A stretch of DNA of 53,821 nucleotides. It comes from Candidatus Babeliales bacterium. GTDB lineage: Bacteria; Babelota; Babeliae; Babelales; Chromulinivoraceae. Under the pieces are notes generated by a model that had not been told where the DNA came from, ran no database searches, and was given only the letters and a program-made list of their open reading frames with translations. This document shows positions 35,116 to 41,788 of the stretch, one piece after another. The translations under genes and the position numbers were made by a program. Each line of letters starts with the position of its first letter. Within the stretch, counting starts at the first letter, position 1. The stretch is taken from positions 67,358 through 121,178 of the forward strand of contig JAGOPI010000001.1 of NCBI GenBank assembly GCA_017992075.1. Direction: 5' to 3'.

Positions 35116-35201
35116 GCCGAAGTGGTGGAAAGGTAGACACGCAGCCTTGAGGTGGCTGTGAGAGAAATCTCTTGGGGGTTCGAGTCCCTTCTTCGGTACC
35201 A
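35116..35201 (+). tRNA. tRNA-Leu(GAG)
   Basis: Class II tRNA with a long variable arm (TGAGAGAAATCTCTT region). The acceptor GCCGAAG pairs with CTTCGGT, leaving a G1-U72 pair where G-C is usual. The anticodon stem CAGCC/GGCTG encloses the loop TTGAGGT, anticodon GAG. CCA is encoded at the 3' end. Confidence 0.93.
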
Positions 35202-35369
35202 GTCTATGTTATGTACACAATTTCGTCTGGTTTCATTAGTACTATTAAAGTAAAAATTAATTAAACTTTGAAGTAATAAAAAATAAATTGTTTAATCGAA
35301 GTTGTAGATGAAAACGGACGAAATAAAAATTGAAAATATCATTAACTCATAAGTTTTTGGAGAGAATTC

Positions 35370-36995: not shown

Positions 36996-37072
36996 GGCGA
37001 CGTAGCTCAGCTGGTTAGAGCGGCAGAATCATAATCTGTAGGTCCGGGGTTCGAGTCCCTGCGTCGCCACCA
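36996..37072 (+). tRNA. tRNA-Met(CAT), elongator
   Basis: Complete 77-nt cloverleaf: acceptor GGCGACG with CGTCGCC, D arm GCTC/GAGC, anticodon stem GCAGA/TCTGT with loop ATCATAA, T arm GGGG-TTCGAGT-CCCT and encoded CCA. The sequence is that of elongator tRNA-Met. Its last 18 bases are repeated 413 bp downstream. Confidence 0.95.
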
Positions 37073-37149
37073 TTCATTTGGTTTATCCAAATGAATGGCA
37101 AGCCATTTTATTTAAATGACTCATTTTTTAATACGTGACGTTGTCACAA
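37055..37149 (+). repeat. Direct repeat copy 1: tRNA-Met 3' end plus hairpin and palindrome
   Basis: This 95-bp segment begins inside the T-loop of tRNA-Met. It runs through the CCA end, a perfect 12-bp inverted repeat (37070-37081 with 37087-37098, including the CCA), and a 13-bp palindrome GTGACGTTGTCAC at 37135-37147. It recurs at 37468-37561 with about five changes. The two copies bracket the GIY-YIG gene. Confidence 0.9.
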
Positions 37150-37170
37150 AATAAAAAAAAGCAGCAAAGT

Positions 37171-37413
37171 ATGTTTTATGTTTATATTTTAAGATCATTA
37201 TCATTTTCTGATCAAATTTATGTTGGCTATACCAATAATTTAAGTAAACGACTCGCTGTTCATAATTCTGGAAATTCTACCTATACTTCAAAATATGTTC
37301 CTTGGGAAATTGTTACGTATGTAACGTTTTCAAATTCTAATAAAGCAATTGAGTTTGAAAAATATTTAAAAACTAATGCTGGCAAAATATTTTTGAATCG
37401 AAGATTCTTATAA
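37171..37413 (+). CDS. Small GIY-YIG nuclease domain protein
   Basis: The 80 residues starting MFYVYILRSLSFSDQIYVGY form the core of a stand-alone GIY-YIG nuclease fold (YVYIL as the GIY-like strand, YVGYT as the YIG-like strand, and Glu near the end in IEFEKYL). No DNA-binding extension is attached. ATG 37171 is preferred because the earlier in-frame GTG and TTG lie within the flanking repeat, though the ribosome binding site is weak. The gene sits between two copies of a tRNA-Met-derived repeat. Confidence 0.8.
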   Translation: MFYVYILRSLSFSDQIYVGYTNNLSKRLAVHNSGNSTYTSKYVPWEIVTYVTFSNSNKAIEFEKYLKTNAGKIFLNRRFL

Positions 37414-37439
37414 AATTCCTTTAAAAAGTTCGACCTGAT

Positions 37440-37467
37440 ATTCATTTGTGAGAATCACAGTGAATAT
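37440..37467 (+). other. Hairpin downstream of the GIY-YIG gene
   Basis: ATATTCA...TTTGTGA, GAA loop, TCACA...TGAATAT forms an imperfect stem-loop immediately before the second repeat copy. No T run follows. It could be part of the element's ends. Confidence 0.5.
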
Positions 37468-37561
37468 GTCCCTGCGTCGCCACCATTCATTTGGTTTATC
37501 CAAATGAATGGCAAGCCATTTTATTTAAATGATTCATTTTTGATATGTGACGTTGTCACAA
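37468..37561 (+). repeat. Direct repeat copy 2: tRNA-Met 3' end plus hairpin and palindrome
   Basis: Starts GTCCCTGCGTCGCCACCA, the last 18 bases of tRNA-Met. The same 12-bp hairpin (37483-37494 with 37500-37511) and GTGACGTTGTCAC palindrome (37547-37559) follow. No full tRNA precedes it, so this is a tRNA fragment, as left by integration at a tRNA end. Confidence 0.9.
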
Positions 37562-37657
37562 CATGTTGAGATGCCACAATTTATGATGAGTTGCTTTTTT
37601 TTAAGTTTATTTTAGGCTACGATTAGTCTAAAATACTTAAAAAAAGGAATTTGTTTT

Positions 37658-39658
37658 ATGGCATTTAATAAAAAAATTGTTCATGGAATTTATATTTTAA
37701 ATTTCTTATTTTTTTTATGTAATTCAATGATTTTTGGTGTTGTAACAACGCAGCAAATTCAACAAGTTCAAGAATTAGTTGAAGTATTGAAAAATCTTAA
37801 TGCTTTAGCTCCATCTGAAAAACAAGCATCTGCGCGAGTTAAATCGATTACGCCATCATCATCGCCAACAATAATAACTCCATCAGCAATGACAAATCCT
37901 GCAGCAAAGGTAACTCCTCCAATACAAACATCAACACCTCCAATAGCGTTACTAGCATTTAATGTAAACGGCTCAAAATGTTCAGCACCATTTACAGTAG
38001 TGAGTGTTGGGGCAGGAGCTGCATATAATGCGACAGCGTTATCATGTTCTGGAGGATTGCAATTAATAAATATTGCACTGACTGATGCAAATGTTACTGA
38101 TTGGAGTGCATCATTAACTATTTCTGATAATGTTTTATCAAATTCTGTATTAATAAAATTAATGCAGCAAGGAATGTACATAGCAATTAATATGATGCAA
38201 AACCCTGCAAATAATCCAGCAGGTAATTATATTCAAATAAATTTAACAGATGTTTCTGGAAATTTGTATGCTCAAAGTCCGTTGGTTCAGTTGCCAGCAG
38301 GTATTGGATTTGCTTATGCAAATGTTGGATTTAATGTATTAAATACTCAGATGGGTATGAATCCAAATCAAACATATGTAAATTGGATGCCGATTGCAAA
38401 TGGACAAGCGATATTTTATAAAGATCAAGGAACAGCAACAAAGGTTACAACTCCTGGAATTGGTGGTCAGGCATTAACACCTCCAATAGCGTTACCAGCA
38501 TTTAATGTGAATGGCTCAAAATGTTCAGCACCATTTACAGTAGTGAGTGTTGGGGCAGGAGCTGCATATAATGCGACAGCGTTATCATGTTCTGGAGGAT
38601 TGCAATTAATAAATATTGCACTGACTGATGCAAATGTTACTGATTGGAGTGCATCATTAACTATTTCTGATAATGTTTTATCAAATTCTGTATTAATAAA
38701 ATTAATGCAGCAAGGAATGTACATAGCAATTAATATGATGCAAAACCCTGCAAATAATCCAGCAGGTAATTATATTCAAATAAATTTAACAGATGTTTCT
38801 GGAAATTTGTATGCTCAAAGTCCGTTGGTTCAGTTGCCAGCAGGCATTGGATTTGCTTATGCAAATGTTGGATTTAATGTATTAAATACTCAGATGGGTA
38901 TGAATTCAAATCAAACATATGTAAATTGGATGCCGATTGTAAACGGACAAGCGATATTTTATAAAGATCAAGGTTCTGCAACAACGGTTACAACTCCTGG
39001 AATTGGTGGTCAAGTATCAACACCACCAGCAACAAAACAATCAGTATCAACAGGATTAACACCTCCCGCAACTCCTATTGCAGCAACTCAGGCATTGCAA
39101 TGGTTAGATGTTTCAGGTTTTGGAGATTTACCAAATGATTGGCCAGCAACTGCAACATCAAATGCAGCGCTTGGATCATGGCCTGTTGCAACGATACAAA
39201 ATAATACACCCTCTTCTTGTGCTCAGGGATTACAAACTTTGTATGTTGATTTAATGAATGCTGCAGGAACTGGAGTTTTAAATTGTCAGTTTACTATTTC
39301 TGCATCACCAATTTTGCAACAATTAGCACAACAAGGATTGTATGTAGCGGTACAAATTTCAAATGTGAATGTTTCAGCAGGAACTAGTACGATAACTGTT
39401 TTTGTGACAGATATATCAGGAAATGTTTTTGCGGCAACTGCAGCAAATTTAGCAAGTTCTGTTGGAGCTACGTATATTTGTGTAGGATTTAATATGAATC
39501 CTTATTTTTATGGTGAATTAATGAATCCATCAGGATCAACGCAAACGGCTGTAAATTTAGTAAAAATTTTAGATAGTTCAAGAATATTTTATAAAGATCA
39601 AGGTTCTGCAACTACAGTTACGACACCAATTTTTGGAGGTATAACGGTTCCTGTTTAA
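37658..39658 (+). CDS. Secreted protein with three copies of a ~180-residue repeat domain
   Basis: Function unknown. The 666 residues have a signal-like N-terminus, a Gln-rich helix (TQQIQQVQELVEVLKNL), and a Pro/Thr/Ser linker. Repeats run from about residues 92-271 and 273-452, with a diverged third from about 485. Each unit contains a Cys pair (SKCSAPF..SCSGGLQ), a central LMQQGMYIAI, DVSGNLYAQSPLVQLPAG and a C-terminal FYKDQG.TT..G pattern. Repeat units 1 and 2 are nearly identical DNA with a period of 543 bp. Extracellular display is inferred from the Cys pairs and signal. The neighbouring gene is its paralogue. Confidence 0.85.
   Translation: MAFNKKIVHGIYILNFLFFLCNSMIFGVVTTQQIQQVQELVEVLKNLNALAPSEKQASARVKSITPSSSPTIITPSAMTNPAAKVTPPIQTSTPPIALLAFNVNGSKCSAPFTVVSVGAGAAYNATALSCSGGLQLINIALTDANVTDWSASLTISDNVLSNSVLIKLMQQGMYIAINMMQNPANNPAGNYIQINLTDVSGNLYAQSPLVQLPAGIGFAYANVGFNVLNTQMGMNPNQTYVNWMPIANGQAIFYKDQGTATKVTTPGIGGQALTPPIALPAFNVNGSKCSAPFTVVSVGAGAAYNATALSCSGGLQLINIALTDANVTDWSASLTISDNVLSNSVLIKLMQQGMYIAINMMQNPANNPAGNYIQINLTDVSGNLYAQSPLVQLPAGIGFAYANVGFNVLNTQMGMNSNQTYVNWMPIVNGQAIFYKDQGSATTVTTPGIGGQVSTPPATKQSVSTGLTPPATPIAATQALQWLDVSGFGDLPNDWPATATSNAALGSWPVATIQNNTPSSCAQGLQTLYVDLMNAAGTGVLNCQFTISASPILQQLAQQGLYVAVQISNVNVSAGTSTITVFVTDISGNVFAATAANLASSVGATYICVGFNMNPYFYGELMNPSGSTQTAVNLVKILDSSRIFYKDQGSATTVTTPIFGGITVPV
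37933..39012 (+). repeat. Tandem 543-bp coding repeat, two near-identical units
   Basis: Unit 1 (37933-38469) and unit 2 (38476-39012) differ at only a handful of positions across about 540 bp. A third close copy lies at 40105-40638 in the neighbouring paralogue. The unit length is a multiple of three, so the frame is kept. Confidence 0.95.
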
Positions 39659-39723
39659 AAAATATTTGATTTTACTGAACGTGCTGTTTTTAATTTGTTA
39701 TTAAATTTTTTTAATTTTTTTAA

Positions 39724-39760
39724 AAAAACAAGCTTGGATTTATTTCAAGCTTGTTTTTTT
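39724..39760 (+). terminator. Intrinsic terminator of the first repeat-protein gene
   Basis: ACAAGCTTG pairs with CAAGCTTGT (39746-39754), loop of nine, with A-run before and seven T after. It separates the two repeat-protein genes, so they are likely separate transcripts. Confidence 0.9.
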
Positions 39761-39817
39761 AAAAATTATATTTTAAGTTTGTTCAAAGTAAAATTTTAAC
39801 AAAAAAGGATTAGTTGT

Positions 39818-41788
39818 ATGAAAATTATACAAAATTTTATAAGAACATATGCATTGTATAGTTTATTTTTGCTGAGTTCGATGTTTTTTAGTGCTCGACA
39901 AAGAATTCAACAAGTTCCACAATTTCAACAAATTTCACAAATTCAACAAATTCAAAATTTAGTTGAAGTGTTAAAATATGTTAAATCTTTACCGCCATTA
40001 TCAAAACAACCTGTGGCGCCTGTTCAACCGATTACATTATCTCCGCAATCACCAGTATCTGGATCACAAGGAGCGCAAGTAAATCCACCAATACAAATAC
40101 CTTCAACTCCAATAGCATTACCAGCATTTAATGTGAATGGTTCAAAATGTTCAGCACCATTTACAGCAGTGAGTGTTGCGGCAGGAGCTGCATATAATGC
40201 AACAGCGTTGTCATGTTCTGGAGGATTGCAATTAATAAATATTGCACTGACTGATGCAAATGTTACTGATTGGAATGCATCATTAACTATTTTTGGTGAT
40301 ATTTTATCAAATTCTGTATTGATGCAATTAATGCAACAAGGCATGTACATAGCAATTAATATGCTTTTAAATCCTGCAGGAAATACCCCAGGTAATTATA
40401 TTCAAATAAATTTAACAGATGTTTCTGGAAATTTGTATGCTCAAAGTCCGTTGGTTCAGTTGCCAGCAGGTATTGGATTTGCTTATGCAAATGTTGGATT
40501 TAATGTAGAAGATACTCAGGTGGGCATGGGTTCAAATCAAACATATGTAAATTGGATGCCGATTGTAAACGGACAAGCGATATTTTATAAAGATCAAGGA
40601 ACGGCAACAACGGTTACAACTCCTGGAATTGGTGGTCAAGTATCAATACCTCCAGTAACAAAACAATTAGTATCAACACTAAGATTTTGGGGTACAGATC
40701 CAACAGATGATTTTATTGTTACAGGTAATGGATTGCCTGCGAATATGGCAACAGTTGTTGATTCTCGTCAAAATGGAACTGCATTTGCATGTCAAGGAGG
40801 ATTACAATTTATTAATGTTGGACTTATTGGTTTAGAGATTGATGGTGGTTGGGCATGTAGATTCAATATTGAAGCTTCACCAAAATTACAACAATTAGCT
40901 CAACAAGGATTGTATGTTGTTGTAACGACGTATCAACAATCAGGTAATAATATTGCGGCAGTTTCACTTACTGATCAAAATGCAAACATTTATGCACAAA
41001 AGTTAGTCAATATTCCTGCAAATTCTGGATTTACTTGGATTAATATTGGTTATAATAAACATGACACACTTTCATCGTTACAATCAAATCAAGTCTATGT
41101 AAATTGGATTCGATTAACTGCAAACACCTTGGTTGCTTCATGGTATCAAGATCAAGGACCATCAACAAGTGTCTCAACGGCAAGCATTGGAGGTTTAATA
41201 GCACCTCTCTTAAATTCGCAACAAGGAAATTTACAACCAGGTGCAGTACAATTACCTTTCATTTTAGCTGCGGCAAATATTAATAATCCTTGTACTTTCC
41301 AAGCTCCAGGTCTGTTAACTTTTACATCAAGCGTAGCTGCTACTTTAAGCGGTACACCATTTTCTTGTCAAAGTGGATTGCGTAAAATAAATATTGGAAT
41401 ATCTGACACTGGTTCTTGTTTTGCATCATTTAATTTTGATAAAACTATCTTAGGTCAACCAGAAATACAAACATTGATGAATAATGGTATGTATATTGGT
41501 GTAAATACAAATGCTGCAACAAATACTATTGTTGCAATGTTGATGGATCAAAATGGTAAAATTTATGCCCAAGGTACTATGCAGTTGCCAGCAAAAACTG
41601 GTGGTAAAATTCAATTTTGGAATCTTGGTTTAAATACGAATGATTCAAATGTTGTAGATGGCAAAATAAAATTGGGATATAACGAAATAGGACTTTCTAA
41701 GACTGTGTTGTATAAACAGTTACCAAATCCATCGCAACCTCAAGGTGCTGTATTGCCACCGCAAATATATGGTCCAGGTGCTTATTAA
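39818..41788 (+). CDS. Secreted repeat-domain protein, paralogue of the upstream gene
   Basis: Function unknown. The 656 residues share the plan of the upstream gene: hydrophobic N-terminus, Gln-rich helix with FQQISQIQQIQNLVEVLKY, a Pro/Ser linker, then three repeat domains. Domain 1 (about residues 97-274) is almost identical in DNA to the upstream units. Domains 2 and 3 are diverged but keep the CQGGLQFIN/CQSGLRKIN Cys motif, QQGLYV/NNGMYI, and a YAQ strand. Terminator hairpins flank the gene. Confidence 0.85.
   Translation: MKIIQNFIRTYALYSLFLLSSMFFSARQRIQQVPQFQQISQIQQIQNLVEVLKYVKSLPPLSKQPVAPVQPITLSPQSPVSGSQGAQVNPPIQIPSTPIALPAFNVNGSKCSAPFTAVSVAAGAAYNATALSCSGGLQLINIALTDANVTDWNASLTIFGDILSNSVLMQLMQQGMYIAINMLLNPAGNTPGNYIQINLTDVSGNLYAQSPLVQLPAGIGFAYANVGFNVEDTQVGMGSNQTYVNWMPIVNGQAIFYKDQGTATTVTTPGIGGQVSIPPVTKQLVSTLRFWGTDPTDDFIVTGNGLPANMATVVDSRQNGTAFACQGGLQFINVGLIGLEIDGGWACRFNIEASPKLQQLAQQGLYVVVTTYQQSGNNIAAVSLTDQNANIYAQKLVNIPANSGFTWINIGYNKHDTLSSLQSNQVYVNWIRLTANTLVASWYQDQGPSTSVSTASIGGLIAPLLNSQQGNLQPGAVQLPFILAAANINNPCTFQAPGLLTFTSSVAATLSGTPFSCQSGLRKINIGISDTGSCFASFNFDKTILGQPEIQTLMNNGMYIGVNTNAATNTIVAMLMDQNGKIYAQGTMQLPAKTGGKIQFWNLGLNTNDSNVVDGKIKLGYNEIGLSKTVLYKQLPNPSQPQGAVLPPQIYGPGAY
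40105..40638 (+). repeat. Third close copy of the 543-bp coding unit
   Basis: This copy lies in the second repeat-protein gene and is nearly identical to 37933-38469, with scattered changes concentrated at the start and in the loop region (NMLLNPAGNTPGN against NMMQNPANNPAGN). Its identity across two genes suggests gene conversion or recent duplication. Confidence 0.9.

Follow-up and report, generated by a model that had tools for sequence, protein, structure and literature searches.

The tRNA-Met(CAU) gene in the stretch of DNA analysed here (the window, 53,821 nucleotides from a Candidatus Babeliales bacterium) is followed by a small gene for a GIY-YIG nuclease, and behind this gene the tail of the tRNA appears a second time. 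The locus raises the question of whether a nuclease gene and a short leader can by themselves constitute a mobile element that settles at tRNA genes. On the evidence of sequence comparison, we consider it probable that positions 37073-37467, directly behind the CCA of tRNA-Met, are a mobile element of about 395 bp composed of a hairpin leader and a minimal GIY-YIG nuclease gene. The element would belong to a family that is widespread and apparently undescribed, with insertions behind tRNA and tmRNA genes of many phyla. Searches of an open-access library gave no description of bacterial GIY-YIG elements located behind tRNA genes.

Organization of the tRNA-Met locus

The features of the locus are the following:

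36996-37072, + strand: intact host gene for tRNA-Met(CAU), CCA encoded (ARAGORN; Rfam RF00005, 69.5 bits)
37055-37072, + strand: tRNA tail copy 1, 18 nt, GTCCCTGCGTCGCCACCA, beginning directly 3' of the T-loop GTTCGA (37049-37054)
37070-37098, + strand: CCA hairpin 1, a perfect 12-bp stem that includes the tRNA's own CCA
37073-37149, + strand: leader of the putative element, comprising the remaining hairpin, the GGCAAGCCATTTT spacer and GTGACGTTGTCAC (37135-37147)
37171-37413, + strand: GIY-YIG nuclease gene, 80 aa; catalytic Tyr, Tyr, Arg, His and Glu conserved
37414-37467, + strand: putative right end, with a T-loop-like GTTCGA (37428-37433) and a hairpin (37438-37467); its boundary is taken from the start of tail copy 2
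37468-37485, + strand: tRNA tail copy 2, the putative duplicated target, GTCCCTGCGTCGCCACCA
37483-37511, + strand: CCA hairpin 2
37486-37562, + strand: second leader unit, leader-only (without nuclease gene), GTGACGTTGTCAC at 37547-37559
35199-35320, + strand: decayed leader-only copy behind tRNA-Leu(GAG) (35116-35201), recognized by visual comparison with the leader behind tRNA-Arg(TCT) in this genome

A 95-bp unit formed by the tRNA-Met tail, the CCA hairpin and GTGACGTTGTCAC is present twice, at 37055-37149 and 37468-37562. The two copies are spaced by 413 bp over their first 74 nt and agree in 91 of 96 aligned columns (BLAST 96%, E 6e-38), confirming the first-pass annotation, in which such a unit was said to recur 413 bp downstream around the GIY-YIG gene. 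The repeat is far above chance expectation, and a chance origin was rejected. In both copies the CCA hairpin reads CCATTCATTTGG-TTTAT-CCAAATGAATGG; as single-stranded DNA it has a folding energy of -11.6 kcal/mol (z -6.0). The GTGACGTTGTCAC sequence, previously called a palindrome, is not a full one and consists of a 5-bp stem with a GTT loop. Between the tail copies there is one ORF, the GIY-YIG gene (PF01541, E 8e-15; likely start ATG at 37171), so that the element was rightly described as being without an integrase.

Two further observations concern this part of the window. AAAAAGTTCGA is found at 37423-37433, ahead of tail copy 2. Further downstream, at 37658-41788, two adjoining large proteins, probably secreted, have in common a repeat of about 180 residues (AFNVNGSKCSAPFT...).

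The nuclease and its position in bacterial genomes

The window protein is a minimal GIY-YIG domain whose catalytic residues are invariant across the aligned family. Its predicted structure (pLDDT 96) is an alpha-beta fold, and the nearest solved sequences and folds are those of Slx1 and UPF0213 BH0048. As a single-domain protein of 80 aa, it consists of the nuclease fold and lacks a further DNA-binding domain. The median dN/dS of 0.06 across 77 Bradyrhizobium pairs indicates that in this genus the nuclease is under strong purifying selection; broken copies of the gene also occur.

Comparison across genomes places the family behind tRNA and tmRNA genes. The window protein detects about 50 distinct loci in 49 genomes of the order, and in 36 of the 50 the gene stands behind a tRNA (34) or tmRNA (2) gene on the same strand, many isoacceptors being represented. 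More than 500 relatives were retrieved from the genome collection with a 9-row alignment as query. Among the best 80 of these, 66 have a same-strand tRNA or tmRNA gene ahead of them at a distance of no more than 700 nt (mostly 85-345 nt); they come from Dependentiae, Alphaproteobacteria, Lentisphaerota, Desulfuromonadales, Omnitrophica and Doudnabacteria. For 5 of the remaining 14 the upstream sequence is too short to judge. Since the best 80 are top-scoring and not random, the search was extended to 289 alphaproteobacterial genomes sampled evenly. The family is present in 34 of them, and 24 of the 30 loci examined are behind a tRNA gene. The distance from the tRNA or tmRNA 3' end to the nuclease gene is mostly 70-370 nt. 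Cultured carriers include Bradyrhizobium, Asticcacaulis and Thalassospira.

A sister subfamily of small GIY-YIG proteins in the same Dependentiae genomes was used as control, and none of its 20 loci has a tRNA or tmRNA gene within about 1.5 kb. Proximity to tRNA genes is therefore ruled out as a general habit of GIY-YIG genes, and the statement of the first-pass annotation that small GIY-YIG genes lie near tRNA genes holds for this family (36/50, 66/80 and 24/30 loci against 0/20 controls). A phage origin of the family was likewise discarded: the viral collection yielded only two relatives, both lacking a tRNA, and PHROG contains no match for the window protein. A role as a defence system was rejected, PADLOC giving only weak matches.

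As a separate observation, in the window genome two differing GIY-YIG genes of the family are arranged in tandem behind tRNA-Glu (L003; G000:C39:44715-45325), each with a leader remnant.

The CCA hairpin leader

The 95-bp unit is a dispersed repeat in the window genome (G000), where it matches 9 places on the unit's strand with 79-100% identity. Seven of these are at the 3' ends of tRNA-Ser(GGA), Cys, Lys, Tyr, His, Gly(GCC) and Val(TAC), with the hairpin beginning with CCA. A related leader type, often decayed (as judged by eye), is found in the same genome behind tRNA-Arg(TCT), Ser(GCT), Ser(TGA), Leu(GAG), Asp, Glu and others. Copies consisting of the leader alone are more numerous in this genome than those with a nuclease gene, and the short gene-less copies share their ends with the gene-bearing copy, in the manner of MITEs.

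In general the leader occupies about 70-150 nt behind the CCA (e.g., CCAGCCTTCGCCAAGGCTTCGGCTGGCAGGCCAG...GGCGAAGGCTGTCCGCCGAAGCTTTAGCGAAGGAGGAC-ATG) and can be recognized from Dependentiae to Bradyrhizobium and Geobacter, the window unit being an AT-rich form of this plan (CCATTC...GAATGGCAAGCCATTT). The three bases that follow the CCA are variable (GCC, CGC, CCC, TAC, TCC, GCT, ACC and more), and the complementary triplet plus TGG or CGG is present downstream in 72 of 95 leaders, whereas 1000 permutations gave 13.5 on average and 25 at most; these 72 are not independent events, as some are related and 24 carry CGC, mostly from Bradyrhizobium. Because 15 different triplets take part in the covariation, the CCA hairpin, including the tRNA's own CCA, can be regarded as real and conserved.

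A profile of the Dependentiae leader, applied to the window genome at E<0.01, hit 6 of 30 tRNA tails and 3 of 30 upstream controls, a weak test because tRNA clusters place some leaders upstream of the next tRNA. At threshold, no Rfam family other than tRNA and tmRNA was found in 17 loci.

A group of orphan elements (L084, L086, L097, L113, L117, L125, L135) has no intact tRNA ahead but a short tRNA-like tail, e.g., GGGACGCCA. In these same orphans an A-rich GTTC(G/T)A is fixed 23 nt before the CCA end, the corresponding distance in tRNAs being 18; the AAAAAGTTCGA ahead of tail copy 2 in the window was noted in the same connection.

Empty sites and movement between tRNA genes

The mobility of the family has support from comparison of related genomes. 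In three genomes of the same genus (G001, G002, G003) and one of the same family (G005) the secDF-tRNA-Met region is syntenic, and behind the CCA there is neither hairpin nor GIY-YIG gene. The idea of a nuclease-only mini mobile element at the tRNA 3' end, raised in the first-pass annotation, is supported by the empty site in these four relatives. An old tandem duplication without mobility is ruled out by the empty sites together with the presence of the same element at other tRNA genes.

Movement between targets is seen in two sister alphaproteobacteria (G171 and G172). They carry a 100% identical element of about 365 bp with one ORF, located behind tRNA-Lys(CTT) in one and behind tRNA-Lys(TTT) in the other. 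A conserved gene elsewhere in the two genomes shows 89% identity. The two sites are reciprocally empty, with a plain terminator hairpin after the CCA in the empty state, and both flanks align at high identity. Near-identical copies also occur within one genome, at tmRNA and tRNA-Arg (G032) and at tRNA-Ser and tRNA-Arg (G038), the likeness starting at the CCA. A tree of 117 proteins, built on only 79 columns and with most forks weak, contains at least 41 changes of the target amino acid.

In Bradyrhizobium the position of the family is stable at tRNA-Ala(GGC), where two alternative leader-nuclease types, or leaders alone, are found between conserved flanks. In one Bradyrhizobium locus (L276) the nuclease gene stands behind tRNA-Ala without a leader, possibly as a decaying copy.

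Such stability would also suit a resident gene with a host function, for instance a nuclease that matures or checks the tRNA preceding it, with the hairpin as processing signal. The constant co-direction of gene and tRNA and the strong purifying selection in Bradyrhizobium agree with this proposal, but it is most improbable: the tRNA or tmRNA target differs by lineage, the family is absent in 255 of the 289 alphaproteobacteria, close relatives have empty sites, and both broken copies and leader-only sites exist.

The leader units could also be passengers of another enzyme that is encoded elsewhere, such as an integrase or a transposase of the REP type, the GIY-YIG gene hitch-hiking with them. 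Although the excess of leader-only copies in the window genome is what such passengers would produce, leader type and nuclease type switch together at the Bradyrhizobium site and the same pairing recurs in distant phyla, and we regard this explanation as quite improbable. A mobile element in which leader and nuclease belong together is the preferred reading.

Duplicated tRNA tails and the ends of the element

Duplication of the tRNA tail had been named by the first-pass annotation as the hallmark of integration at a tRNA gene. It is present in the window, but it is not the main signature of the family: a full or partial tail copy 3' of the nuclease gene was found in 6 distinct loci of about 108, and none in the other approximately 102. 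The recurring unit, as judged by comparison, is the CCA hairpin leader plus the GIY-YIG gene; the leader also spreads alone, and tmRNA genes are targets as well.

The six loci are the window (18 nt), a tRNA-Ala (23 nt; G026), a tRNA-Asp (65 nt; G041) and three alphaproteobacterial tRNA-Gln sites. Five of the six copies begin within the T-loop, and the Gln(CTG) and Gln(TTG) sites each have a copy of their own tail beside nearly the same element. Of mismatched pairs of tail regions, 0.3% attain 12 nt. A second hairpin unit stands behind the tail copy both in the window and in G026, and can be read as an insertion at a site with a prior leader-only copy or as a tandem duplication. Across the loci compared, the left joint is precise at the CCA and the right end loose, with tail duplication occasional and bounded by the T-loop. 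The right end is variable and native terminator sequence can be lost, so that repair fits better than clean transposition.

The same looseness of the right ends would be expected if the family spread by homing through recombination only, as phage seg genes do. Element-free tRNA genes would be cut and repaired from an element-bearing tRNA gene, and the tail copies and the window repeat would be tandem duplications made by repair and not target-site duplications. The precedent is SegB, including tandem repeats of tRNA plus segB that arise via homologous recombination (PMC13096335). One tail copy 65 nt long points the same way, as does the likeness of the window copies, still 96% against about 80% for other copies in the genome. 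However, the moves connect targets with no more than about 5-7 bp in common at the joint (CACCA or TCCACCA), and the native acceptor stem is retained, which homing into cognate alleles does not predict. Homing alone is in our opinion rather unlikely, although it is the most probable of the rival explanations.

A possible mechanism and its significance

For an element that inserts behind the CCA, the following steps may be envisaged. The nuclease most likely cuts tRNA and tmRNA genes in their common region, which extends from the T-loop (GTTCRA) as far as the CCA end. A copy of the element would enter the break, by transposition or by break repair, and the tRNA would be left whole with the element placed after the CCA; the CCA could act as the joint because every tRNA gene supplies it. 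Strand cuts about 18-23 nt apart, or repair by duplication, would leave a tail copy at the right end, as in the window. Leader-only copies would be non-autonomous kin that the nuclease may move in trans. We infer that the GIY-YIG nuclease is the mover, as well as the position of its cut and the way in which the ends are joined. As the protein is a single 80-aa domain related to UPF0213 and Slx1, sequence-specific cutting at the T-loop is not assured.

A bolder proposal can be advanced tentatively, as a possibility of some weight. The family would be a new class of transposable element with an 80-aa GIY-YIG protein as sole enzyme, whose recognition targets are hairpins, namely the CCA hairpin and the T-arm. 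Insertion would be precise, directly 3' of the CCA at any tRNA or tmRNA gene, with a tail duplication of about 20 bp, and leader-only copies would be mobilized in trans. With a size of about 0.37-0.45 kb, such elements would rank among the smallest known mobile elements that are autonomous.

If the interpretation as a mobile family is right, many bacterial phyla harbour an overlooked family of selfish DNA next to their tRNA and tmRNA genes, and a GIY-YIG enzyme does what until now only transposases and integrases were credited with. It would also show how little autonomous mobility needs and account for the repeats found behind tRNA genes. In addition, it would provide an insertion system that is small, prefers certain sites and keeps the tRNA intact.

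Comparison with known systems

Integrative elements and prophages with tyrosine integrases that target tRNA genes insert at the 3' end of tRNA or tmRNA genes, leave the tRNA whole and carry a copy of its tail at the far end. The window family also inserts at the tRNA 3' end with the tRNA whole, but its element has no integrase and measures about 0.4 kb. REP/RAYT and IS200/IS605-type systems consist of short hairpin repeats, with non-autonomous copies outnumbering the gene-bearing copy, and depend on an HUH (Y1) transposase. Hairpin repeats and an excess of non-autonomous copies are common to both, whereas the sole ORF of the window element is GIY-YIG and not HUH (Y1), and the element is tied to tRNA ends.

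Among GIY-YIG proteins, UPF0213 and Slx1 are the closest to the window protein in solved sequence and fold. Slx1 acts together with Slx4 as a structure-specific repair nuclease, and as far as known neither UPF0213 nor Slx1 is tied to tRNA genes. Penelope-like elements, which are eukaryotic retroelements (PMC1564403), resemble the window element in being mobile elements that rely on a GIY-YIG nuclease, but the window element has no reverse transcriptase. Seg-type homing endonucleases share with the window nuclease a gene located outside introns and inteins and its presence or absence at a site; in contrast, the window family has no extra DNA-binding domain and its spread is not confined to the cognate site, reaching various tRNA genes and tmRNA.

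The mechanism may be most like that of SegB of phages T4 and T6 (PMC13096335, PMC2988022), a free-standing GIY-YIG homing endonuclease whose gene is likewise located beside tRNA genes of many isotypes. T6 SegB cuts inside tRNA genes at RAWTSGAAC and drives a recombination-dependent tandem duplication of tRNA plus segB (PMC13096335). The reverse complement of its site, GTTCSAWTY, matches the T-loop, an equation made in this analysis and not in PMC13096335; both this cut motif and the duplication of tRNA plus nuclease gene have their likeness in the window family. If our reading is right, phage SegB becomes linked to elements of bacterial chromosomes. SegB, however, is a phage gene among tRNA genes, whereas the window family resides in bacterial chromosomes, consists of the 80-aa nuclease domain only, and differs from it in having a covarying CCA hairpin leader, a junction at the CCA, leader-only copies and tmRNA among its targets.
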